Source of the DNA: Holophagaceae bacterium
GTDB lineage: Bacteria > Acidobacteriota > Holophagae > Holophagales > Holophagaceae
Assembly (NCBI GenBank): GCA_023257195.1
Contig: JALRCU010000012.1
Location: 62,001 to 126,000 of the forward strand
Direction: 5' to 3'
Length of the DNA: 64,000 nucleotides
Part shown: one piece after another, positions 41,128 to 47,230 of the stretch
How positions within the stretch are numbered: position 1 is the stretch's first letter
How the letters are laid out: each line of letters starts with the position of its first letter
Made by a program: the position numbers and the translations under genes
Notes under the pieces: model-generated
What the model saw: only the letters and a program-made list of their open reading frames with translations
Told to the model about the DNA's origin: nothing
Databases searched by the model: none

Positions 41128-42123
41128 ATGACAACTTCCCGACATCCTGATTTAGACCCCAGTCATAGCGAGACGGATGCGGTTGAGTTTAGCCTAAGAC
41201 CCCAGAAACTCAATGAGTACATTGGTCAAACAAAAACTAAAGCTAAAATCGATATTGCTCTCGATGCGGCAAGAAAGCGATCAGAAGTCCTCGAGCATGT
41301 TCTTTTGTTTGGTCCTCCCGGACTCGGTAAAACAACGCTTGCGAATGTATTGGCCAACGAGATGGGAGCGCATTGCCGAGTGATCCAAGCACCCGCTTTA
41401 GAAAAGAAAGGGGATCTGGCGGCCATTCTGACAAATCTAGAAGAGGGTGATTTTCTATTTATTGATGAAATCCATCGCCTTGCGCCACCCATCGAGGAGA
41501 TGCTTTACTCGGCTATGGAAGACCGCCATTTGAATATTCTTATTGGGCAAGGTCCAAGTGCCCAGACCCTCCAGGTGGATTTGAAGCCGTTCACCCTGGT
41601 AGGAGCCACAACAAGGGCCGGGTTAATTAGCAAACCTCTTCGTGATCGTTTCGGGATGACTTTTCGTCTTGATTTCTATTCAGTGGAAGATCTAAGCCAT
41701 ATCTTGATTCGTAATGCTCAACTCCTTAAACTCCCGATGGATGCTGCGGCCTGCTCGGCAATTGCTAAGCGTAGCCGGGGAACTCCTCGGATCTGCAATC
41801 GACTCTTGCGTCGCTGCCGTGACTTTGCGCAAGTCAAAGGATCAGGGAATCTGACGTCATCTCTTGCTGAGGACTGTCTTTCCCTGCACGAAGTCGACGA
41901 GCGAGGTCTGGACGCCCTTGATCGTCTTTATCTAGAAACGCTAGTTTCCAAGTTTAATGGGGGACCCGTGGGGCTCAAGACCTTATCCTCGGCTTTAGGG
42001 GAGGATGAAGGAGCGCTCGAGGATTTGGTAGAACCCTATTTGATGCAAGTAGGACTGTTGGATCGGACTCAGCAGGGGCGAAAGGCTACAGAAGAAACCT
42101 ATCGATTTTTAGGTTTGCGGTAA
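41128..42123 (+). CDS. ruvB: Holliday junction branch migration ATPase RuvB
   Basis: Motor of the RuvABC resolvasome. Walker A GPPGLGKT (62-69), Walker B in FLFIDEIHRL, sensor motif TLVGATTRAG, the arginine finger in RDRFGMTFRL, and the C-terminal winged helix. From ATG 41128 the protein has 331 residues; an in-frame TTG five codons earlier is less likely. RuvA and RuvC are not in the window. Confidence 0.96.
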   Translation: MTTSRHPDLDPSHSETDAVEFSLRPQKLNEYIGQTKTKAKIDIALDAARKRSEVLEHVLLFGPPGLGKTTLANVLANEMGAHCRVIQAPALEKKGDLAAILTNLEEGDFLFIDEIHRLAPPIEEMLYSAMEDRHLNILIGQGPSAQTLQVDLKPFTLVGATTRAGLISKPLRDRFGMTFRLDFYSVEDLSHILIRNAQLLKLPMDAAACSAIAKRSRGTPRICNRLLRRCRDFAQVKGSGNLTSSLAEDCLSLHEVDERGLDALDRLYLETLVSKFNGGPVGLKTLSSALGEDEGALEDLVEPYLMQVGLLDRTQQGRKATEETYRFLGLR

Positions 42124-42219
42124 TTCTGCTTAAATCCAGCCTAACAAGCCATCATCTAGCGCCCAGCTGATTGGCCTAAATGTTGAAATATCTAGAGGTA
42201 GAATTTATGTAATTATTCT

Positions 42220-42225
42220 TTGACA
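42220..42225 (+). promoter_or_regulatory. Probable -35 element for the first small membrane protein gene
   Basis: A perfect TTGACA lies 69 bases upstream of the 42294 ATG, inside an AT-rich 170-base gap. The -10 is unclear: CAAAAT (42245-42250) gives a 19-base spacer. A separate promoter is expected because ruvB ends well upstream. Confidence 0.4.
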
Positions 42226-42293
42226 ATAACGCTACAACTTTAAACAAAATCTGCCTAATATTAGTGGCATAACTCATCCCTTAAGGAGGGCTC

Positions 42294-42512
42294 ATGCAAT
42301 TACTCGATACGATGACTGATGTAATCAAACGATTCACTGGTTTTATCTGGGTTGTTTTAACCATCGCCATCCTGCTCGAGGTCTTGGGTTTGCCTATGGC
42401 CAACCTGACTCCTGTAAAAAACCTTTTAACGTTATCTCAGGGTTTTAATACCGGCCTGGTCGGAATCTTGGCAGCTTTTATTGCCTGGAACATGGCCACA
42501 AGAAATAATTAA
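42294..42512 (+). CDS. Small membrane protein, paralogue 1, function unknown
   Basis: A 72-residue hydrophobic protein not recognised as a known family. A short N-terminal amphipathic stretch (MQLLDTMTDVIKR) leads to a first membrane segment (about 16-34) and a second (about 52-67) ending in AFIAWNMA. It has a very strong ribosome binding site (AAGGAGGG, 6 bases before the ATG) and a perfect terminator 21 bases after the stop, so it is probably an independent, well expressed unit. The gene at 42711 is a paralogue, about half identical, sharing the MQ-LD---D-IKR start, the TP--NL centre and the AFIAW end, and even the upstream leader CATAACT-ATCCCT-AGGAGGG. Confidence 0.8.
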   Translation: MQLLDTMTDVIKRFTGFIWVVLTIAILLEVLGLPMANLTPVKNLLTLSQGFNTGLVGILAAFIAWNMATRNN

Positions 42513-42533
42513 ATATCTCTTTAATAAACGGTT

Positions 42534-42568
42534 AAAAGCCCTCCACTAGTCCATTTTGGAGGGCTTTT
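42534..42568 (+). terminator. Intrinsic terminator after first small membrane protein gene
   Basis: AAAAGCCCTCCA (42534-42545) and TGGAGGGCTTTT (42557-42568) form a perfect 12-bp stem with an 11-base loop, ending in a T run. Confidence 0.92.
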
Positions 42569-42628
42569 GATATTTTGGTCGTTTCTGGGATTAATATAAC
42601 TATAATTAAATCAATAATTATATTTGAT

Positions 42629-42644
42629 GTCATAATTTTATGAC
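42629..42644. promoter_or_regulatory. Palindrome GTCATAA-TT-TTATGAC, possible operator
   Basis: Perfect 7-base arms with a 2-base centre, lying 66 bases upstream of the second small membrane protein gene, within an AT-rich tract. The first copy's upstream region has no equivalent, so the two genes may be controlled differently. Confidence 0.4.
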
Positions 42645-42710
42645 CTTTTGCTTTATTTTATGGGCACTCAGGGGTATCGTAGGCACATAACTATCCCTGA
42701 GGAGGGAACC

Positions 42711-42926
42711 ATGCAAATACTCGATATGATCGTGGATGCCATCAAGAGACTCACCTCTCTTGTTTGGGTACTCTTGACCATCTCAGTACTTCTTCAAGTT
42801 CTAGGTGCCGGCATGTTTGGCTGGACACCCATCACAAACCTCTCAACCATTGCTGCTAGTTTAGCCGGCCAAGGTTTTGTAGGCCTTGTGGTCGCTTTCA
42901 TCGCTTGGCATATTGCCAACCGATAA
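42711..42926 (+). CDS. Small membrane protein, paralogue 2, function unknown
   Basis: A 71-residue protein, tandem paralogue of the gene at 42294. N-terminal MQILDMIVDAIKR, first membrane segment about 16-34, centre WTPITNL, second segment about 53-67 ending AFIAWHIANR. GAGGAGGG at 42699-42706 precedes the ATG; a longer in-frame ORF from 42648 lacks such a signal. The stop is followed 12 bases later by a strong terminator. Holin-like and stress-membrane-peptide roles are possible but nothing in the sequence decides. Confidence 0.8.
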   Translation: MQILDMIVDAIKRLTSLVWVLLTISVLLQVLGAGMFGWTPITNLSTIAASLAGQGFVGLVVAFIAWHIANR

Positions 42927-42938
42927 GCGCTGCTCTTA

Positions 42939-42972
42939 AAAAAAGCCAAGACCTTTGGGTCTTGGCTTTTTT
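42939..42972. terminator. Bidirectional intrinsic terminator between paralogue 2 and ubiA
   Basis: AAAAAAGCCAAGACC (42939-42953) pairs perfectly with GGTCTTGGCTTTTTT (42958-42972) around a TTTG loop. T runs are present on both strands, so it can serve the small gene and the convergent prenyltransferase gene. Confidence 0.93.
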
Positions 42973-46615: not shown

Positions 46616-47230
46616 ATGTCCGTTAAGACCCTCTTATCCATCATTTTAGTAGGAGCCAATCTGATGGCCACCGAAGAGCCTAAATATAAAGTTGTCGAAA
46701 AAGTCGGTCGTGTTGAAATTCGGCAGTATGAACCCTATCTTGTGGCTCAAACCAAAGTGAATGGGTCCTTCGATCAAGCGGGTAATCTAGCTTTTAGGGT
46801 TCTATTTCAATACATCTCAGGGGCGAATAAAACCCAGACCTCTATCGCCATGACCGCTCCTGTGGCTCAAACTAAAAATACCGGTACGTCTATCGCCATG
46901 ACCGCTCCTGTGGCTCAAACTAAAGAGTCCGATGGAAGCTGGAACGTTTCCTTTATGGTTCCTTCTGAATTTACCGCCGAGACCGTTCCTCAACCCACCG
47001 ATCCAAGAGTGACCATTGTGTCAATTCCTGGGTCCTTAGTCGCAGCCATTAACACTTCAGGATTTTGGTCGGAAAGTAAAGTTATGGAGGCTGAAATTGA
47101 GTTGGAGCGCTTCATCCAATCCTCAGCTTATATTCGCAAAGGGCCCTTTACCTATGGCCGCTACAATGCCCCTTTCGTTCCGTTCTTTATGCGCCGAAAT
47201 GAATTAATGTGTCCGATCGCTAAAAAATAG
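46616..47230 (+). CDS. SOUL-family haem-binding protein, exported
   Basis: A 204-residue protein with an N-terminal signal-like stretch (about 1-18) and the SOUL fold: YKVVEKVGRVEIRQYEPYLVAQT, IAMTAPV, VSFMVPSEF, GPFTYGRYNAPFVPFFMRRNE. The IAMTAPV strand occurs twice in tandem (TSIAMTAPVAQTK, 16-residue period). Such proteins bind tetrapyrroles in some organisms; function in bacteria is not established. GGAGA upstream of the ATG. It starts 16 bases after the recombinase gene. Confidence 0.85.
   Translation: MSVKTLLSIILVGANLMATEEPKYKVVEKVGRVEIRQYEPYLVAQTKVNGSFDQAGNLAFRVLFQYISGANKTQTSIAMTAPVAQTKNTGTSIAMTAPVAQTKESDGSWNVSFMVPSEFTAETVPQPTDPRVTIVSIPGSLVAAINTSGFWSESKVMEAEIELERFIQSSAYIRKGPFTYGRYNAPFVPFFMRRNELMCPIAKK
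46841..46924 (+). repeat. Tandem direct repeat inside the SOUL gene
   Basis: Two identical 36-base copies (46841-46876 and 46889-46924) separated by 12 bases, giving a 48-base (16-codon) period. The frame is kept, so the encoded motif is simply doubled. Confidence 0.95.

Follow-up and report, generated by a model that had tools for sequence, protein, structure and literature searches.

The small membrane proteins p1 and p2, encoded in tandem within a 64,000-nt stretch of Holophagaceae DNA (hereafter, the window), are a genuine orphan family that is ordinary in kind; what is unusual about them is how strongly a streamlined genus retains and equips them. The genes are real, they stem from an old duplication present in every species examined, their proteins are under selection, their terminators are strong, and a region of 5′ mRNA is conserved. 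The host genome (G000) is a 1.2 Mb assembly of 56 contigs from the phylum Acidobacteriota. We infer that its genus is almost certainly the Holophagaceae genus UBA12189 (“Acidiparvus”), which is freshwater, free-living, genome-streamlined and proteorhodopsin-bearing (PMC11561045). Two other genomes of the same genus (G001 and G002) have been made public, one under the name “Acidobacteria bacterium isolate F1-20-MAGs096”, the other as “Acidobacteriota bacterium LBMAG_Acidobacteria_hypo.bin1”.

Distribution and conservation of the two genes

The coding sequences of p1 (72 aa, positions 42294–42512) and p2 (71 aa, positions 42711–42926) both lie on the + strand, and their products are identical at 35 of 71 positions (49%) and 69% similar, so that the two paralogues described in the preliminary description as about half identical are indeed there. 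The coding starts are alike, ATGCAA(T/A)TACTCGATA, and each ATG is preceded, 4–5 nt upstream, by AGGAGG (in full, AAGGAGGG-CTC-ATG for p1 and GAGGAGGGAACC-ATG for p2), in keeping with the claim of near-perfect ribosome-binding sites. ATG 42711 is taken as the start of p2 because it is marked both by a Shine–Dalgarno sequence and by the paralogy with p1. A 92-aa reading frame starting at TTG 42648 was rejected as the p2 protein: its extra residues vary freely among species, and the corresponding stretch of p1 is interrupted by an in-frame stop.

The neighbours, identified by Pfam, are ruvB, which stops at position 42123, and a convergent ubiA, and the order ruvB, p1, p2, ubiA is kept in all three genomes of the genus that were searched. 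Within ruvB itself, a stretch at 41221–41370 is one where G001 is nearer to G002 (0.92–0.97) than to G000 (0.83–0.93), with flanks that favour G000, which looks like recombination between species. Elsewhere in the window, at 46616–47227, there is a reading frame that appears by eye to be SOUL-like and heme-binding, with an internal direct repeat, TSIAMTAPVAQTK, present twice.

A profile of all six proteins was run against the family (77 genomes), the class (93) and a sample of the phylum (396) in search of relatives. The 74 family genomes outside the genus yielded none, and neither did the class genomes and the phylum sample beyond the genus; the sub-threshold profile matches in other Acidobacteriota were rejected by eye as pieces of larger membrane proteins (ammonium-transporter-like or ABC-permease-like) or as unrelated frames. 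The viral contigs, phages and plasmids searched gave no credible relative, and Pfam, PHROGs, NCBIfam, PADLOC and the PDB gave no significant match. Downstream of ruvB in other Holophagaceae, other genes are found and no small hydrophobic reading frame of the p1/p2 type; this survey drew on six genera with full information, one with a flank of around 480 nt and one with around 130 nt. The statement that no known family is recognized therefore stands for the databases searched, at their cut-offs. The preliminary description had also named a lack of homologues beyond close strains as grounds for doubt: orthologues do exist in two other species, but all of them are within the genus.

The orthologues of p1 in those species are 97% and 92% identical to it, and those of p2 90% and 82%. 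Since p1 and p2 each resemble their own orthologues more than they resemble one another, the duplication predates the split of the three species. Between G000 and G002, dN is 0.06 for p1 with dS saturated, and 0.11 for p2 with a dS of 0.49 (dN/dS for p2 being around 0.15–0.22); between p1 and p2 within G000, dN is 0.38 and dS is again saturated. That dN lies far below dS, whether orthologues or the two copies are compared, indicates that p1 and p2 are protein-coding genes under constraint, and the purifying selection between the copies that had been set as a test is thus present.

Across the six proteins, 29 of 73 alignment columns are invariant. Residues 1–15 are amphipathic (muH 0.67–0.72), with D5, D9, K12 and R13 invariant on that face, and two hydrophobic segments follow, at residues ~16–34 and ~50–68. 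The first contains the invariant W19 and T23, the turn the invariant P40..N43-L44, and the second the invariant G54, G57, A61-F62-I63 and W65. Hydropathy and hydrophobic moment hence agree with the amphipathic helix plus two spans proposed earlier, although the second span of p1 is only moderately hydrophobic (a 17-residue Kyte–Doolittle peak of 1.37, as against 1.88 in p2). AlphaFold2 gives a two-helix hairpin (helices 2–30 and 39–70) at low confidence, with a pLDDT of 63–66 and a pTM of 0.35–0.36, and a Foldseek search with one such low-confidence model found no matching fold in the PDB. The charges at K12, R13 and R70 suggest that both ends are cytoplasmic, and the GxxGxxxAFIxW pattern of the second span would form a small-residue face of the helix-packing kind.

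Leaders and terminators

The two leaders can be aligned back to around −90, and they have in common an extended −10-like element, TGT(A/C)AT(A/T/G)AT, and, some 4 nt further on, TGAC, so the matching upstream leaders noticed at the outset were confirmed. The elements, which are aligned with one another, are TGTAATTAT at 42208–42216 for p1, where it is kept in the three species, and TGTCATAAT at 42628–42636 for p2 (both + strand). TGAC probably marks the start of the transcript, around 70 nt 5′ of the ATG, which would give leaders of 42222–42293 for p1 (ribosome-binding site AAGGAGG) and 42642–42710 for p2 (GAGGAGG), again on the + strand. The −10-like motif is a loose one, with 33 matches in 64 kb, and, because no −35 element is evident, the promoters are regarded here as putative. 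The invariant bases of the leader also include CATAACT..TCCCT..AGGAGG. A sequence model of the leader finds only two sites per genome in the three genomes, those of p1 and p2, and no third copy.

On the + strand, p1 is followed by an intrinsic terminator at 42531–42571 (−21.7 kcal/mol) and p2 by a symmetric one at 42939–42972 (−21.2 kcal/mol). These hairpins with U-tracts are the two strongest terminators of the 64 kb, as befits their earlier description as among the clearest in the window; the third, at −16.2 kcal/mol, lies inside a coding sequence. None of 40 Markov-1 sequences of 64 kb each with equal dinucleotide content contained a terminator at or below −20 kcal/mol. In the scanned stretches of the host contig, ~174 kb in all, just two further terminators reach −18 kcal/mol or lower, one after the gene for RNase P RNA and one after an unnamed reading frame at the contig end; this scarcity fits the reading that p1 and p2 give short, abundant transcripts. 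The RNase P RNA itself (class A; L072 6990–7365, G000:C6:26990–27365) ends in a terminator-like hairpin of −22.7 kcal/mol. In 80 kb of G002, the p1 and p2 terminators are again the two strongest, that of p1 having a changed sequence and a stem that is still strong; the p2 terminator is kept in both G001 and G002.

The uniqueness of the leader, together with the strength of the terminators, makes strong, short and insulated units likely, and the terminator ranks and the null sequences support the prediction, made from sequence, of high, insulated expression. The idea that each gene is an independent expression unit is supported for the boundary separating p1 from p2 and for the 3′ ends. Upstream, no terminator was found in the interval between ruvB and p1, so read-through into p1 is possible. 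At the other end of the locus, the A-run/T-run symmetry of the p2 terminator means that it could serve the convergent ubiA too.

The frozen 5′ region of p2

In p2, the leader and the first 32 codons (42642–42806, + strand) form a block that is frozen at the nucleotide level, with 10 differences in 165 nt between G000 and G002. Over these 32 codons, 0.94 of third positions are kept in all three species pairs, as against 58–73% in the rest of p2 and a mean of 53% for 32-codon windows between G000 and G002 (17,404 windows in 65 ORFs). No other 32-codon window of the 65 ORFs is as high, which suggests that the 5′ mRNA probably serves a separate function. The next two windows are in an ORF over tRNA-Leu and at the 3′ end of ispF, where G000 and G002 agree at 97% of third positions in the segment 40517–40630 (minus strand), near the junction with an AlkB-like ORF. 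The block occurs nowhere else in the host genome.

One explanation is that the locus is controlled, or in part works, as RNA: the p2 mRNA would open with a 165-nt cis-regulatory element, or share this stretch with a small RNA, that sets the translation of p2, with a weaker counterpart in p1; this is possible, if somewhat less than plausible as the main account of the locus. The conservation has the extent to be expected of it, beginning near the putative transcript start and fading past codon ~32. When G002 is compared with the other two genomes, codons 2–32 that specify the same residue are unchanged in 24 of 27 and 25 of 26 cases, versus 3 of 10 and 4 of 10 in the next 18 codons, and p1 has the same trend more weakly (15/27 unchanged versus 2/16 further on). 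The Shine–Dalgarno sequence of p2 adjoins a self-complementary TCCCT/AGGGA, the region of the start codon is common to p1 and p2 despite synonymous sites that are otherwise saturated, and the 5′ ends of the three p2 coding sequences fold alike, since the changes among them either leave the pairs untouched or create an extra one. Against this, the folding energy of p2 is not unusual (z of −1.0 versus dinucleotide shuffles and −0.9 to −1.2 versus codon-preserving nulls), a candidate leader stem, CUCAGGG/CCCUGAG, was rejected as two of its three changes in G002 break pairs, and Rfam gave no match at the gathering score. Only three species can be compared, and a short segment may instead have passed from one species to another, albeit with less likelihood because the three pairs are equally similar and the start-codon region is common to p1 and p2. 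Overlapping ORFs were rejected as the cause of the freeze: four other frames have stops inside the block, and the one reverse frame that stays open merely shadows the coding one and lacks a methionine. A constraint on the mRNA would thus be the simplest cause of the frozen block, with RNA structure only a candidate. A purely protein-level role does not explain the block, and control at the RNA level is compatible with a role for the proteins as membrane hairpins.

Possible roles of the pair

Small bacterial membrane proteins with two spans form a general class, which includes PspG and PMP3/YqaE. The p1 and p2 proteins resemble this class in length and in their two hydrophobic spans; they differ from it in matching no Pfam or NCBIfam family at cut-off, in being restricted to a genus and in being arranged in tandem with matching leaders. 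They may also resemble further two-span small proteins from plankton bacteria. The reading that we prefer, tentatively and at somewhat less than an even chance, is that p1 and p2 are abundant helical hairpins of the inner membrane, acting as structural or accessory subunits; we infer the topology, oligomers, abundance and role. The amphipathic helix of residues 1–15 would be continuous with the first span, a short loop carrying the conserved P..NL would lead to the second span with its small-residue face, and both ends would probably be in the cytoplasm. With each gene transcribed strongly as a short unit by itself, p1 and p2 are probably both abundant. They would most likely pack via the second span into homo- or hetero-oligomers and serve the inner membrane, or a membrane complex of the genus, and p2 is probably controlled additionally through its 5′ mRNA. 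The retention of the locus in a genus undergoing genome streamlining (PMC11561045) counts for hairpin subunits, while the absence of a homologue of known function, the lack of a fold match and the moderate second span of p1 count against them.

Other known systems might account for the pair. A type I toxin–antitoxin locus is called to mind by small hydrophobic proteins that are encoded in tandem, each in a single-gene unit, and by a 5′ region conserved at the nucleotide level over which an antisense RNA could lie and repress them. Typical type I toxins, however, are single-span peptides, smaller than proteins of 71–72 aa with two spans; no minus-strand promoter-like site was seen at the locus (the promoters of this lineage may differ), no family matched, PADLOC included, and a pair that a streamlined genus keeps without exception is more in line with housekeeping, all of which makes such a locus improbable. 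Similarly, p1 and p2 are like the Small Multidrug Resistance family (PF00893) in being small, hydrophobic and in the membrane, and the p1-type proteins match Multi_Drug_Res weakly (E 0.015). This match reaches 16.2 bits versus a cut-off of 23.7 and involves only the p1-type proteins, three of the six members; moreover, E29 in the first span of p1 is Q in p2, and where that family has four transmembrane helices in ~100–120 aa, p1 and p2 have two hydrophobic segments in 71–72 aa. A transport hairpin of this or another type is thus very improbable. The chance that they are holin-like proteins derived from a phage or mobile element, which their size and two spans would allow, is slighter still: no PHROG scores below E 0.08, no credible relative was found in phages, plasmids or viral contigs, all three species have the genes at one chromosomal position, flanked by ruvB and ubiA, and no phage genes lie next to the pair. 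A locus that combines protein and RNA functions, in which the 5′ half of the mRNA of a genus-specific family would be a functional RNA element and tandem, abundant hairpins would be balanced post-transcriptionally, is rather unlikely as a whole.

For the proteins as hairpin subunits, it is pertinent that streamlined genomes shed most dispensable genes, yet this pair is kept, which points to an abundant, lineage-specific component of the membrane. Every species of the genus examined keeps both copies of a protein found nowhere else searched, and the terminator behind each is similar in strength to the one behind RNase P RNA. Thanks to the frozen 5′ mRNA, post-transcriptional control can be tested directly, and p1 and p2 would be a membrane component in a bacterium widespread in lakes.
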